64,000 nucleotides of DNA, taken from contig JAJTCN010000002.1 in NCBI GenBank assembly GCA_021323335.1, forward strand, positions 1 through 64,000, in the 5' to 3' direction. Every line of letters begins with the position of its first letter. Positions within the stretch are counted from its first letter, which is position 1. Both the position numbers and the translations under genes were made by a program. Below the pieces are notes generated by a model. That model was not told where the DNA came from, made no database searches, and saw nothing but the letters and a program-made list of their open reading frames with translations. Source of the stretch: Ramlibacter sp. GTDB lineage: Bacteria > Pseudomonadota > Gammaproteobacteria > Burkholderiales > Burkholderiaceae_C. Of this stretch, positions 1 through 11,423 are shown in pieces.

Positions 1-598
1 CGGCCGACTTGTGGGGAACGAACAGGCCGCATCCCAGCAGCCGCTGCGGCCCGATCCCGCGGCGCAGCACGCGCAGCGACTCGGCGCGGGTCAGGCCGGC
101 CAACATCACGCTGCAGCCGACCATCGCGCCTTCGGGCGACTGCCAGCGGCCGCAGACGGGCTGGGCGGGGACGTCGATGGCCTCGAGTTCGCGGCGCGCC
201 CGCCCCACGAGGGCGGCCTCGTCGGTGTCGGGCGCCGCGACGAAGTGGGCGTAGAGGGTGGCGTAGGGGAGCAGTTCCCGCAACTGCGGGCTCCATGGGC
301 GCAGCGCGTCCTGGCCCACCCGCAGCACGGTGCCCGCCAGCGCCATGGCGGCCTGCGCCCGCTCGCGCGGCACCCGCAGCACCAGGCGCGTGCGGGGCGT
401 GACCAGCATTTCGCCGCCGCCCCCCGCGACCAGGTTGAGCCGGTGGACCCCGGCATCCGGGGCTTCGGCCAGCCAGGGCAGGGCCGCCTGCAATGCCTCG
501 GCGAGGTTCGCCCGGTAGGCCTTCGCCAGGGTGCCGTCCTGCAGGGCGAAGCGGACCTCGACCATGTCGGCGATTTCCACGGCCGCCTCACTTGCCAT
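1..598 (-). CDS. Cas6/Cmx6-like RNA endonuclease family protein (C-terminus cut by window edge)
   Basis: Reads leftward from ATG at 598; 199 residues are visible and the frame is open to the window edge. The core VTPRTRLVLRVP (residues 66-77) and the C-terminal glycine-rich stretch ending GCGLFVPHK (residues 189-197) match my memory of the Cas6/Cmx6 family (type I-MYXAN CRISPR RNA nucleases). His52 in GVHRL is a candidate catalytic residue. Known Cas6 proteins bind and cut hairpins in precursor crRNA, but no CRISPR repeats or other cas genes occur here. The start overlaps the end of the 72-aa gene (stop 588-590), so the two are translationally coupled, and both diverge from dsrA. A role in sulfur oxidation or mRNA processing is inference only. 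It might alternatively be a Cas6-fold protein without nuclease activity. Confidence 0.7.
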   Translation of the reverse strand, partial: MASEAAVEIADMVEVRFALQDGTLAKAYRANLAEALQAALPWLAEAPDAGVHRLNLVAGGGGEMLVTPRTRLVLRVPRERAQAAMALAGTVLRVGQDALRPWSPQLRELLPYATLYAHFVAAPDTDEAALVGRARRELEAIDVPAQPVCGRWQSPEGAMVGCSVMLAGLTRAESLRVLRRGIGPQRLLGCGLFVPHKSA

Positions 599-806
599 GG
601 GGCTGCGTCGCGGCCCAGGCGAGCAGCGCCTCGCCCCATGCGTGCGCGGTGGCCGGGTCGATGTCGAAGATGGTGAAGCGCGACTGCTCGCGGATGCGGG
701 TGCGCAGCAGGCTCATGCCGCCGCCATCGAAGTCGACCTGCTGCAGCTCGATCTCCTGCCCGCCCAGCGGGACGCGCAGCTTGCAAAGGGGTTGGAGGCG
801 CGGCAT
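588..806 (-). CDS. Small conserved hypothetical protein paired with the Cas6-like gene
   Basis: ATG at 806 gives 72 residues, starting MPRLQPLCKLRVPLGGQ and ending at TGA 588-590. It is soluble, with one Cys (residue 8), no signal peptide and no membrane segment; the body alternates short beta-like stretches (IELQQVDFDGGG, SRFTIFDIDP) and ends in a helix. I do not recognise a function; it resembles the short DUF6967-type proteins, a tentative assignment. The stop overlaps the start of the Cas6-like gene, so the pair is probably one transcript, and its upstream region is shared with dsrA. A promoter-like element at 855-908 on this strand resembles those in front of the chemoreceptor and exporter genes. 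Confidence 0.65.
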   Translation of the reverse strand: MPRLQPLCKLRVPLGGQEIELQQVDFDGGGMSLLRTRIREQSRFTIFDIDPATAHAWGEALLAWAATQPHGK

Positions 807-854
807 GGAAGGGTTCTCGCTCGAACCCGGATTGAGCGCGCAGGGGCGGCGCAG

Positions 855-908
855 CGTCCATACCCGCTGCGGGTGGCGGGGGGATACGCCATCCGGGTAG
901 GGGGTTCC
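855..908 (-). promoter_or_regulatory. Putative regulatory element, diverged copy, in the dsrA divergent region
   Basis: Read on the minus strand this stretch has CTACCC, then ATGG, GTATCC, a C-rich run and CGGGTATGGACG. The order and near-identical spacing match the elements at 16598-16647 and 17872-17915 (GTATCC, C-run, CGGTGATGGACG in the former). It lies 49 bases upstream of the 72-aa gene and about 75 bases upstream of dsrA, so it could serve either direction. The match is weaker than between the other two copies. Confidence 0.4.
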
Positions 909-983
909 TGCCAACCGGAGGGATGGCGCGCGCGGGCCGCCGCGCCGAGTATTCGCCTCACCCCGCGCCACAGGAGACAAGCG

Positions 984-2276
984 ATGGCCAAGCAGATGCA
1001 CCCGACGCCGATGCTCGACGAACTCGAGACCGGGCCGTGGCCCAGTTTCGTCACGGGCCTCAAGCGCCTGGCCCAGGACAAGGATTACGTGGTCGACCTG
1101 CTCGGCACGCTGGAGACCTCGTACCGCACGAAGAAGGGCTACTGGAAAGGCGGCACCGTCGGCGTGTTCGGCTACGGCGGCGGCGTCATCCCGCGCTTCA
1201 CCGAGCTGAAGGACGAGAACGAGAAGCCGGTGTATCCCGACGCGGCGGAGCTCCACACCCTGCGGGTGCAGCCGCCGCCGGGCATGCACTACACCAGCGA
1301 CGTGCTGCGCAAGATGTGCGACATCTGGGAGCGCCACGGCACCGGCCTGATCGCCTTCCACGGGCAGTCCGGCGACATCATGTTCCAGGGCGCGAAGACC
1401 GACAAGGTGCAGGACGCGTTCGACGAGCTGAACGAACTGGGCTTCGACCTCGGCGGCGCCGGCCCGGCGGTGCGCACGTCCATGAGCTGCGTCGGCGCGG
1501 CGCGCTGCGAGCAGAGCTGCTACGACGAGGCGCGGGCCCACCGGCAGGTGATCAACACCTTCACCGACGACATCCACCGCCCGGCGCTGCCCTACAAGTT
1601 CAAGTTCAAGTTCTCGGGCTGCCCGAACGACTGCATGAACTCGATCCAGCGCGCCGACATGGCGGTGATCGGGACCTGGCGCGACAACATGCGCTCGGAC
1701 GAAACCCTGGCGCGCAAGTGGTTCGACAAGCACGGCATGAACGAGCTGGTCAACGACGTGGTCACGCGCTGCCCCACCAAGGCGATCATGCTCAAGGAGG
1801 TCAAGGACCTCAAGGCCGGTCCGCGCATCACCAGCGTGCAGGTCAGCGACACGCACGCGCTGGAGATCGACAACGGCGACTGCGTGCGCTGCATGCACTG
1901 CATCAACGTCATGACCGGCGCCCTGTCCCACGGCACCGACACCGGCGCGACCGTCCTGGTGGGCGGCAAGCGCACGCTGAAGATCGGCGACCTGATGGGA
2001 ACGGTGGTGATCCCCTTCCTGCCGCTGAAGACCGACGCCGACTACGAGGCGCTGGTCGACCTGGGCCAGCGGGTCATCGACTTCTTCGCCGAGAACGCGC
2101 TGGAGCACGAGCGCACCGGAGAAATGATCGAGCGCATCGGCCTGGTGAATTTCCTGGAAGGCGTCGGCATCGAGATCGACCCCCACATGGTTTCCACGCC
2201 CCGCACCAACCCCTACGTCCGCATGGACGGCTGGGACGACGAAGTGGCGAAGATCAACGCGAGGAAGGCGGCCTGA
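984..2276 (+). CDS. dsrA: Dissimilatory sulfite reductase alpha subunit (reverse type)
   Basis: 430 residues, the usual DsrA length; ATG at 984 follows a good AGGAG at 972-976. With DsrB it forms the cytoplasmic siroheme enzyme that, in sulfur oxidisers, runs in reverse and oxidises DsrC-bound sulfur to sulfite. Visible cluster ligands are the siroheme-[4Fe-4S] cysteines in CVGAARCEQSC and SGCPNDC, and a ferredoxin insert with CVRCMHC plus an upstream RCPTKA cysteine. Oxidative direction is inferred from co-occurrence with dsrEFH and dsrL and from the adjacent soeABC. First gene of a long collinear operon; dsrB starts 2 bases after its stop. Confidence 0.98.
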   Translation: MAKQMHPTPMLDELETGPWPSFVTGLKRLAQDKDYVVDLLGTLETSYRTKKGYWKGGTVGVFGYGGGVIPRFTELKDENEKPVYPDAAELHTLRVQPPPGMHYTSDVLRKMCDIWERHGTGLIAFHGQSGDIMFQGAKTDKVQDAFDELNELGFDLGGAGPAVRTSMSCVGAARCEQSCYDEARAHRQVINTFTDDIHRPALPYKFKFKFSGCPNDCMNSIQRADMAVIGTWRDNMRSDETLARKWFDKHGMNELVNDVVTRCPTKAIMLKEVKDLKAGPRITSVQVSDTHALEIDNGDCVRCMHCINVMTGALSHGTDTGATVLVGGKRTLKIGDLMGTVVIPFLPLKTDADYEALVDLGQRVIDFFAENALEHERTGEMIERIGLVNFLEGVGIEIDPHMVSTPRTNPYVRMDGWDDEVAKINARKAA

Positions 2277-2278
2277 CC

Positions 2279-3352
2279 ATGGCACAACTGCACCGGACCC
2301 CCATCGAAAGCGGCTGCCCCGACAACAAGCCGTTCCTGCACCCCACGCTGGTGAAGAACTACGGCAACTGGAAGTACCACGACCGCCCGCGCCCCGGCGT
2401 GCTGCACCACGTGTCGCACTCGGGCGACGAGGTGTGGAGCGTGCGGGCCGGCACCCAGCGGCAGATGGACGTGTACACCATCCGCAAGCTGTGCGACATC
2501 GCCGACACCTATGCGGACGGCCACGTGCGCTTCACCATCCGCTCGAACATCGAGTTCATGGTGAGCGACCCGAACAAGGTGGCGCCCCTGGTCAGCGCGC
2601 TGACCGAAAGCGGCTTCCCGGTGGGCGGAACCGGCAACTCGGTCTCGATGATCGCCCACACGCAGGGCTGGCTGCACTGCGACATCCCCGGCACCGATGC
2701 CTCCGGCGCGGTGAAGGCGCTGATGGACGAACTGCATGCCGAGTTCATCCGCGAGGAAATGCCCAACCGGGTGCACCTGTCGACGTCCTGCTGCGAAATC
2801 AACTGCGGCGGGCAGGCCGACATCGCCATCATCGTGCAGCACACCAAGCCGCCGAAGATCAACCACGACCTGGTCGCCAACGTCTGCGAGCGGCCCGCGG
2901 TGGTGGCGCGCTGTCCCGTCGCCGCGATCCGCCCGGCGCTGGTGAACGGCAAGCCCTCGCTGGAAGTCGACGAGAAGAAGTGCATCTGCTGCGGCGCCTG
3001 CTACCCGCCGTGCCCGCCGATGCAGATCAACGATCCCGAGCACTCCAAGCTCGCGATCTGGGTGGGCGGCAAGAACTCCAACGCCCGCGGCAAGCCGACC
3101 TTCATGAAGATGGTGGCGTCGGGCCTGCCGAACAACCCGCCGCGCTGGCCGGAGGTGTCGGCCATGGTCAAGAAGATCCTCTACACCTACAAGGAGGACG
3201 CCCGTTCGTGGGAGCGCCTGTCCGACTGGGTGGAGCGCATCGGCTGGCCCCGCTTCTTCGAGAAGTGCGACCTGCCGTTCACCAAGTACCTGATCGACGA
3301 CTGGCGTGGCGCGCGCGCCAACCTCAATGCGTCGGCACATATCCGTTTCTGA
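2279..3352 (+). CDS. dsrB: Dissimilatory sulfite reductase beta subunit (reverse type)
   Basis: 357 residues, normal for DsrB, starting at ATG 2279 two bases after the dsrA stop. Siroheme-cluster cysteines are visible in STSCCEINCGG and in the later VCERP and ARCPVAAI segments; the ferredoxin domain carries CICCGACYPPCPP. DsrB supplies the catalytic siroheme sites of the alpha2beta2 enzyme and the docking site for the DsrC C-terminal arm. The 68-base gap to dsrE is longer than most gaps in the operon and contains a strong hairpin. Confidence 0.98.
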   Translation: MAQLHRTPIESGCPDNKPFLHPTLVKNYGNWKYHDRPRPGVLHHVSHSGDEVWSVRAGTQRQMDVYTIRKLCDIADTYADGHVRFTIRSNIEFMVSDPNKVAPLVSALTESGFPVGGTGNSVSMIAHTQGWLHCDIPGTDASGAVKALMDELHAEFIREEMPNRVHLSTSCCEINCGGQADIAIIVQHTKPPKINHDLVANVCERPAVVARCPVAAIRPALVNGKPSLEVDEKKCICCGACYPPCPPMQINDPEHSKLAIWVGGKNSNARGKPTFMKMVASGLPNNPPRWPEVSAMVKKILYTYKEDARSWERLSDWVERIGWPRFFEKCDLPFTKYLIDDWRGARANLNASAHIRF

Positions 3353-4472: not shown

Positions 4473-4805
4473 ATGGCCATCGAAATCAACGGCACCTGCT
4501 ACGAAACCGACGAGGAAGGCTACCTGGTCAACCTCGCGGAATGGAACGAGGACGTCGCCAACGTCATCGCCAAGACCGAGAACGTCGAAATGACGTCCGG
4601 GCACTGGGAGGTGGTGAACTTCCTGCGCGACTACTACAACGAGTACCAGATCGCCCCGGCGGTCCGCGTGCTGACCAAGGCCATCGGCAAGCAGCTCGGC
4701 CCGGACAAGGGCAACAGCAAGTACCTGTACGAGCTGTTCCCCTACGGGCCGGCCAAGCAGGCCTGCAAGATCGCCGGCCTGCCCAAGCCGACCGGCTGCG
4801 TCTGA
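4473..4805 (+). CDS. dsrC: Sulfur carrier protein DsrC (both redox cysteines present)
   Basis: 110 residues with the DsrC/TusE fold and the flexible C-terminal arm. Both strictly conserved cysteines are present: Cys98 (QACKIAG) and the penultimate Cys109 (TGCV). They carry the sulfur delivered by DsrEFH to DsrAB and form the trisulfide or disulfide read by the membrane complex. ATG at 4473 follows AAGGAGCC. A second, cysteine-free paralogue lies at 12847-13212. Confidence 0.98.
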   Translation: MAIEINGTCYETDEEGYLVNLAEWNEDVANVIAKTENVEMTSGHWEVVNFLRDYYNEYQIAPAVRVLTKAIGKQLGPDKGNSKYLYELFPYGPAKQACKIAGLPKPTGCV

Positions 4806-10238: not shown

Positions 10239-11423
10239 ATGGAAACCGCGCGCTCCACCCGCACCTTCTGGCTGCTCGCCGGTCTCGGCGGCGCGCTCAC
10301 CGCCGTCGGCCTGGGCGCCGCCCACTTCATGGAGACGCACGGTCACATCGTCACCGGCATGGGCAACGAGGTGGTCTGGGGCCTGCCGCACGTGTTCGCG
10401 ATCTTCATGGTCGTGGCTGCCTCCGGCGTGCTGAACATGGCCTCGGTCGGCTCCGTGTTCGGCCAGCCGGCGTACAAGACGCGCGCGCGCCTGTCGGGCC
10501 TGCTGTCGCTGGCGTTGCTGGCGGGCGGCCTGATGGTGCTGATGCTGGACCTGGGCCGGCCCGAGCGCGTGATCGTCGCCGCCACGCACTACAACTTCCG
10601 CTCCGTCTTCGCCTGGAACGTGTTCCTCTATTCGGGCATGGCGGCCATCGTCGTGGTCTACCTGTGGACGATGTTGCAGCCGGGACTGGACAAATGGTCG
10701 AAGCCGGCCGGCATCGCCGCGCTCGGCTGGCGCTTCATCCTGACCACGGGCACGGGCTCGATCTTCGGCTTCCTGGTGGCGCGCGAGGCTTACCAGTCGG
10801 CGCTGCTGGCGCCGCTGTTCATCCTGTTCTCGCTCGCCTGGGGACTGGCGCTGTTCCTGCTGGTGCAGGCGCTGCTGTCCGCGCGGGCCGGGCTGGCCGT
10901 GCCGGACGCGGTGCTCGGCCGCCTGGCGCGGCTGCTCGGCATCTTCGTCGCGGCCTGCCTCTACCTGGTCGCCGTGCAGCACATGACGCACCTGTACGAA
11001 GCCCGGCGTGGCGGCTTCGAGGCCTTCCTCCTGCTGGGGCGCAACGGCGGCGCGCCGTACGCCACCCTGTTCTGGGCCGGCTACGTGCTGCTCGGATCCG
11101 TGTTGCCGTTGCTGCTGCTGTTCCACCCCGCCCTGCGCAGCCCGCGTGGCGTGACGGCCGCCGCGGCGCTGGTCCTGATCGGCGCGTTCGCGTGGCTGTA
11201 CGCCTTCATCGTCGGCGGCCAGGCCTTCCCGCTGGACATCTTCCCTGGCCACGAAGTCCGCAGCAGCTTCGGCGACGGCGCAGTGGCGCGCTATGTGCCG
11301 AGCGTGCCGGAAGCGCTGCTCGGCATCGGCGGGCTGGGCGCGGCCCTCCTGGTCACCACGATCGGCATGCGGCTGTTCGACATGCGGCCGCATGACACGC
11401 CGGCCGCACCCGCGAAGGCCTGA
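10239..11423 (+). CDS. dsrP: DsrP, NrfD-family membrane quinone-interacting subunit
   Basis: 394 residues with about ten hydrophobic membrane segments, matching the NrfD/PsrC family and DsrP length. Together with DsrM it gives DsrMKJOP two quinone-linked modules. Begins 3 bases after dsrO; dsrN follows 4 bases later. Confidence 0.95.
   Translation: METARSTRTFWLLAGLGGALTAVGLGAAHFMETHGHIVTGMGNEVVWGLPHVFAIFMVVAASGVLNMASVGSVFGQPAYKTRARLSGLLSLALLAGGLMVLMLDLGRPERVIVAATHYNFRSVFAWNVFLYSGMAAIVVVYLWTMLQPGLDKWSKPAGIAALGWRFILTTGTGSIFGFLVAREAYQSALLAPLFILFSLAWGLALFLLVQALLSARAGLAVPDAVLGRLARLLGIFVAACLYLVAVQHMTHLYEARRGGFEAFLLLGRNGGAPYATLFWAGYVLLGSVLPLLLLFHPALRSPRGVTAAAALVLIGAFAWLYAFIVGGQAFPLDIFPGHEVRSSFGDGAVARYVPSVPEALLGIGGLGAALLVTTIGMRLFDMRPHDTPAAPAKA

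Follow-up and report, generated by a model that had tools for sequence, protein, structure and literature searches.

A lone Cas6/Cmx6 homologue and a cysteine-free DsrC paralogue beside the reverse dsr operon

Genes at the divergent cas6-dsr locus

The window, by which we mean the whole 64,000-nucleotide stretch that was analysed, comprises bases 1-64000 of contig C69 in an assembly of 4.49 Mb and 165 contigs that is 89.7% complete. Its left end carries a minus-strand cas6/cmx6 homologue (598..1; ORF 598-2) that starts at 598 and stays open at the contig edge; C69 begins at window base 1, and the reading frame is therefore cut by the contig end. A second minus-strand gene (588..806), encoding a 72-aa DUF6967 protein, overlaps the start of cas6 by 11 bases. 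Beyond it lies an upstream region of 177 bases that is common to the cas6 and dsr operons (807..983), after which the dsr genes run on the plus strand: dsrA at 984..2276 (TIGR02064, 512 bits), dsrB at 2279..3352 (named from its position and a DsrB match to dsrA-flanking loci), followed by dsrEFH and more, and the dsrC of the operon at 4473..4805 (PF04358, TIGR03342), whose C-terminal cysteines are normal. The earlier note on this DNA had placed a 72-aa gene beside cas6, with both diverging from the dsr genes, and this layout stands; the co-transcription that it also proposed is suggested by the 11-base overlap.

The missing end of cas6 was found, in a search of the same genome, through a PF09559 match on contig C87, whose first 99 bases are the reverse complement of the window's first 99. 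The two contigs probably adjoin, judging from this overlap and from the like gene order in relatives, and cas6 completed across C69 and C87 encodes a protein of 206 aa. After cas6, C87 carries a dsrC paralogue (PF04358), a 219-aa orf3, a dioxygenase of the TauD family, a ferredoxin reductase (2Fe-2S/FAD) and a 73-aa ORF and, further on and on the opposite strand, a YeeE-type transporter (PF04143) and then a DsrE-family protein. Being on a separate contig, these partners had escaped the earlier note, the most notable among them being the DsrC paralogue without cysteine.

The window protein matches PF09559 over profile positions 1-191 of 191 (E 4.4e-45; 154.5 bits, cut-off 26.7) and TIGR02807 cas6_cmx6 with 111.8 bits against a cut-off of 98.85; it also has both motifs from which it had been called Cas6/Cmx6-like, and that assignment is upheld. 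Another Cas6 model, PF01881, has no match in the window's own genome. The predicted model (pLDDT 93.2) finds Cas6 structures as its best fold matches, headed by the type I-B CAST Cascade Cas6 (TM 0.83), which is also the closest solved structure by sequence profile (E 4e-30). Family profiles, a predicted double ferredoxin-like fold and a conserved Gly-rich loop together make this protein a Cas6 by descent.

At the DH-motif position, 160 aligned rows of dsr-type Cas6 carry His in 143 cases, Tyr in 12, Asn in two, and Ser, Ala and Pro in one each; the His is kept in 75 of 77 gamma-type and 68 of 83 beta-type copies, and its 17 losses are spread over 14 clades of a FastTree tree. All eight comparison rows that cover the position, seven from CRISPR-Cas loci and one (L189) a lone plasmid copy, have His, which is probably catalytic, given how widely it is kept and that it sits at helix 1. 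By alignment the window's copy is one of the 12 Tyr rows, with Tyr28 at this position, and "nuclease" may therefore not fit it; it may bind RNA rather than cut it, or cut slowly. Dsr-type and comparison rows alike keep R75 and the Gly-rich loop almost unchanged, and W42, H52, E127, G150 and a PHK tail form a signature of the dsr type. One copy, in G003 (L017, 9078-9622), is split over two frames, as a pseudogene or through an assembly error. The lone Gloeobacter plasmid cas6 (L189, 5974-6765) adjoins PAPS-reductase-family and cupin genes in a stretch without an annotated cas gene.

Distribution, gene order and CRISPR context

Among 370 genomes sampled at class level, the class presumably being Gammaproteobacteria in the wide sense, Cas6 (by PF09559) occurs in 128 genomes, dsrA (by TIGR02064 at E<=1e-60) in 124 and both in 121, which leaves seven with Cas6 alone and three with dsrA alone (G154, G166, G245). 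Cas6 is thus present in 121 of 124 dsrA genomes and in 7 of 246 without dsrA (Fisher p 1.7e-84, kinship ignored). Among the seven, G414 has its copy inside a cas operon, as recognised from its ORFs; each of the remaining six has a gene of the TauD or DsrC family close by, and in G254 dsrA is matched as well. Counting 129 Cas6 places (the split match in G294 taken as one and the C87 fragment excluded), Cas6 and dsrA share a contig at 93, of which 90 have the two genes divergent and at most 5.2 kb apart; at the remaining three (G153, G411, G344) Cas6 lies 42-518 kb from dsrA. Among 61 relatives, dsrA is found in six and Cas6 in all six of these and in a seventh, G017, which has a dsrA fragment at a contig end. 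A phylum sample of 299 genomes holds dsrA in 36, of which the four inside the class all have Cas6 and the 32 outside it have none. The tie is near-complete inside the class and none was seen outside, so Dsr works without Cas6 in those 32 genomes.

We also scanned 84,980 named genomes with a peptide pattern of dsr-type Cas6, which yielded 397 relatives, and analysed the best 80 of them; this locus set was drawn by pattern and is a biased count, and the family searches are unbiased. Titles among the best 80 of 397 are proteobacterial, chiefly Burkholderiales and Betaproteobacteria; Ramlibacter lithotrophicus, Rubrivivax albus and Hydrogenophaga aromaticivorans are among the titles other than MAGs. 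Upstream and divergent dsrA is found in 77 of these 80, and in the other three (L032, L054, L091) the sequence ends 2-384 bases upstream of Cas6. The position beside dsrA, which had been described for this one locus, is systematic. As separate observations, G050 has two dsrA-like places (on C59 and C13), each matched by two separate segments of the profile (1-127 and 160-399), which looks like an interruption, and in the 1.16 Mb genome G411 (f118; L136, 8379-9783) Cas6 is divergent from genes that read by sequence as RNase III-like and era-like.

Two gene orders recur. Beta-type loci have DUF6967, Cas6, a DsrC-family gene (DsrC2), orf3, TauD and a reductase diverging from dsrA, and among 80 such loci, some of them incomplete, the labels were assigned to DUF6967 in 78, orf3 in 78, DsrC2 in 75, TauD in 74 and the reductase in 60. 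Gamma-type loci have TauD, a ~62-aa protein, often an ORF-X, Cas6, DsrC2, often a ~68-aa protein, and orf3; the 60 loci of this set, which include L134, the CRISPR one, hold the ~62-aa protein in 47, ORF-X in 24, the ~68-aa protein in 25 and orf3 in 26, and at L173, L182 and L183 it is DUF6967 that sits upstream of Cas6. The pair of cas6 and the 72-aa gene, for which a survey of dsr loci had earlier been suggested, recurs in the beta type. The gene before Cas6 varies by lineage and the Cas6-DsrC2 pair is mostly constant: at 128 of 147 Cas6 loci the 2.5 kb downstream hold a DsrC-family gene of the same strand, the pair is kept away from dsrA in L142, L144, L145 and L147, and the f118 genomes of L135-L138 are without a downstream DsrC-family gene. 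At L097, a 520-base gap between Cas6 and DsrC2 holds what we take to be a tandem TusA-type gene.

DsrC2 of the window's genome, on C87, matches PF04358 and TIGR03342 (TusE/DsrC/DsvC) and ends in KGGY. Among 127 full-length DsrC2 ends (the fragment L185 left out, and some genomes entering twice under two locus ids), 125 are KGGY, one is KAGY (L091) and one is a normal GCV (L182); the penultimate cysteine of a sulfur carrier is accordingly present in 1 of 127, that of L182. Opposite-strand DsrC-family rows, chiefly the DsrC of the dsr operon, have it in 108 of 110. The TauD proteins keep their metal-ligand residues, with the HxD pair present in 114 and a distal His in 110 of the 116 rows. DUF6967 of the window (PF22295, E 3e-30) has no solved relative by sequence; its predicted beta4-alpha topology (pLDDT 92.3) fits a PUR/Whirly-type repeat, and Pur-alpha chains are among the top fold matches, all of which are weak (best E 0.57, nothing at 0.001 or better), which gives a hint, no more, that it may bind nucleic acid. 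We considered ORF-X as a remnant of Cas11/Cse2 and rejected it: 1 of 24 copies matches PF09485, at E 0.013 and below the cut-off, which we attribute to chance, and PDB support is absent.

The region between the divergent operons carries two elements. A palindromic, operator-like motif, P1, lies at 862..874 of the window, and a second element, P2, at 885..900, where it can be made out by eye in a degenerate form that the P2 pattern misses. Across 78 beta-type upstream regions, P1 occurs in 54, P2 in 58 and both in 40 (shuffle means 4.9, 0.2 and 0), with a spacing of 21-23 bases in 32 of the 40; by a strict pattern, the beta-type motif was found in 0 of 40 gamma-type loci. P1 and P2 look like a tandem operator that would serve the two operons, although they might instead be RNA hairpins. 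A. vinosum DsrC is said, in PMC5944118, to bind DNA upstream of dsr. In a search for an RNA target, 128 gaps between Cas6 and DsrC2 were extracted (median 45.5 bases), and a CRISPR-repeat-like hairpin was discarded as a candidate when 31 of the 128, folded and read by eye, had nothing in common. Gaps within the dsr operon are short (medians 30-53 bases, ~10 of them coding), and Rfam at gathering scores has no match in the window or C87.

The earlier note had reported that the window holds neither CRISPR repeats nor cas genes, and had held that a complete CRISPR-Cas locus immediately before its first base would refute its reading. A simple array detector finds no array in the window; its sensitivity is unproven, since it flagged three of eight plasmid comparison loci, and some of the eight may have no array within the sequence covered; no cas genes lie beside cas6 in the window or on C87, and a CRISPR locus was looked for on C87 and is absent there. 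The window's Cas6 has neither adjacent cas genes or array nor the probably catalytic His. In the window's genome, at its 89.7% completeness, there is no Cas1 and no DevR/Cas7, and three cas3_core matches each fall below their cut-off. Among 80 of 134 Cas6 genomes, picked for assembly quality, Cas1 matches occur in 41, some of them weak, and are absent from 39; the window's genome belongs to these 39, as do nine assembled as a single contig and six with a size of 1.0-1.1 Mb. Over 188 sources the array detector flagged two. The one at L141 (4487-5690, in G386) is genuine, with 19 copies of the repeat found; a dsr-type Cas6 stands alone ~3 kb away from it, and dsrA is on another contig; L072 was flagged but is an 81-base repeat in three copies (10955-11135) between DsrC2 and orf3.

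In a 98-row tree made by a quick method, one branch (SH-aLRT 95) splits 89 dsr-type from nine comparison rows; eight of those nine come from cyanobacterial plasmids, and the tree therefore gives neither direction nor date of the switch. Distances of Cas6 and DsrA are correlated (r 0.84 over 106 loci; 0 of 1000 permutations), for which shared species history may be the source. Among viral contigs, 55 pattern matches included no relative.

A proposed role and its alternatives

Reverse Dsr is a main bacterial route of sulfur oxidation, and little is known of how it is regulated. We suggest, with somewhat more belief than doubt, that the dsr-linked protein is a Cas6 exapted to bind a specific RNA, and in most species to cut it, within a DsrC-KGGY module serving reverse-Dsr sulfur oxidation. 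A Cas6 would have departed from CRISPR to become a standing companion of this pathway in one bacterial class; its conserved Gly-rich loop would recognise a short RNA element, which in most species would be cut by way of the conserved His, and in the window's organism the change of His to Tyr would leave binding without cutting, or slow cutting. The KGGY DsrC is without an end cysteine, hence cannot carry sulfur there, and might instead be an adaptor or state reader of the DsrC/DsrEFH/DsrAB system. Together the two would adjust the amount or the processing of a sulfur-oxidation RNA, most simply a transcript of the dsr or cas6 operon, a scheme that supposes contact between Cas6 and DsrC and an effect on sulfur oxidation. 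The earlier idea of a Cas6 nuclease reused for cellular RNA, perhaps dsr mRNA, survives in part: a Cas6 homologue, outside a CRISPR locus and systematically tied to dsr, is what we find; an action on dsr mRNA or any other RNA is conjecture, and for this organism the word nuclease is weakened by Tyr28. More tentatively, and with belief falling a little short of doubt, we posit that the lone Cas6, the KGGY DsrC, the TauD dioxygenase and lineage-variable small partners make up a regulatory device of RNA and protein that accompanies reverse Dsr almost obligately across one bacterial class. A Cas protein would thereby have been domesticated for energy metabolism, with DsrC-KGGY as reader of the sulfur state and Cas6 as the RNA effector. 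Homology, fold, co-occurrence, gene order, the KGGY ending, the His kept in 143 of 160 copies, the Gly-rich loop, the separate side of the tree, the lack of Cas1 in 39 of 80 genomes, the shared motif, the TauD ligands and the DNA binding ascribed to A. vinosum DsrC count for an exapted Cas6 in sulfur oxidation; the search for an RNA target that found none, the loss of His in 17 of 160 copies, the window's among them, a DsrC2 that is not universal, Cas1 in 41 of 80 genomes, the array at L141 and the 0 of 32 outside the class count against it.

The same evidence has to be weighed under other readings. That the His has been lost 14 times, in 17 of 160 copies, with the gene retained, and that DsrC2 adjoins Cas6 in 128 of 147 loci, would suit a Cas6 fold kept solely as a scaffold on which the KGGY DsrC and other partners assemble for sulfur handling, with RNA irrelevant; we consider this unlikely, given a His kept in 143 of 160 copies and 75 of 77 of the gamma type and a near-invariant Gly-rich loop of the RNA-contact type. 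A part in tRNA metabolism is conceivable because TusE, a DsrC relative, belongs to tRNA thiolation: Cas6, DsrC2 and the dioxygenase would act on tRNA and balance sulfur between thiolation and Dsr. The match of DsrC2 to the TusE/DsrC/DsvC family TIGR03342 and the kept dioxygenase ligands fit this, yet DsrC2 is without the end cysteine and no result of the analysis points to tRNA, and we hold it to be distinctly improbable.

Our doubts are greater still about a Cas6 that continues to serve arrays elsewhere in the genome, in spite of the Cas1 matches in 41 of 80 genomes, the array ~3 kb from the G386 copy and the His kept in most copies, since Cas1 is absent from 39 of 80, the window's genome included, the presence of Cas6 tracks dsrA rather than CRISPR, the dsr type has its own side of the tree, and in 370 genomes one copy was seen in a cas operon, in a genome (G414) without dsrA. 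Least credible of all, to the point of near dismissal, is a cas6 with little function that is carried by linkage to dsr: the correlated Cas6 and DsrA distances and the frameshifted copy in G003 could be cited for it, but the gene is retained in genomes of ~1 Mb and apart from dsrA (G153, G344, G411), and its motif positions are conserved.

If exaptation for RNA binding and cutting is correct, it would be, as far as is known, the first metabolic role of Cas6 outside CRISPR, of which we know of no earlier case, and it would add a new layer of control to sulfur oxidation. The pairing of Cas6 and DsrC with 121 of 124 dsrA genomes in the class sample, kept at ~1 Mb, makes direct tests possible, and a label of "type I-MYXAN Cas6/Cmx6" in such genomes does not necessarily imply CRISPR.

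Relation to known systems

We found no account of a dsr-linked Cas6 in the open-licence literature, and the tie is absent from the accessible parts of PMC5728499, PMC5944118, PMC10952691, PMC3368242, PMC11267869, PMC12669027 and PMC6018796. A. vinosum has four more DsrC-family genes, according to PMC3368242, and one of them, Alvin_1508, goes down ~7- to 8-fold on pyrite, several dsr genes going down too, according to PMC11267869.

With Cas6/Cmx6 of types I-MYXAN and I-B, the dsr-type protein shares profile matches above cut-off, the predicted fold, the Gly-rich loop and, in most copies, the DH motif; unlike them, it is without an adjoining cas operon or array, is tied to dsrA and has different signature residues, the window's copy having Tyr for His. 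Its nearest solved structure, by the E value and TM score given above, is the Cas6 of the type I-B CAST Cascade (PDB 8fcj, 8fcu), but Tn7-like and Cascade genes are lacking here, and the neighbours are dsr, DUF6967, DsrC2, orf3, TauD and the reductase. DsrC2 likewise belongs with the DsrC/TusE family by PF04358 and TIGR03342, and differs in ending in KGGY instead of a cysteine-bearing end and in adjoining Cas6; cysteine-free DsrC relatives are presumably what is called RspA. The Dev CRISPR genes of Myxococcus are a case of Cas proteins tied to a cellular programme, within a CRISPR-Cas operon. Here too a Cas protein appears to be tied to a cellular programme, but as a lone Cas6 in a metabolic locus.
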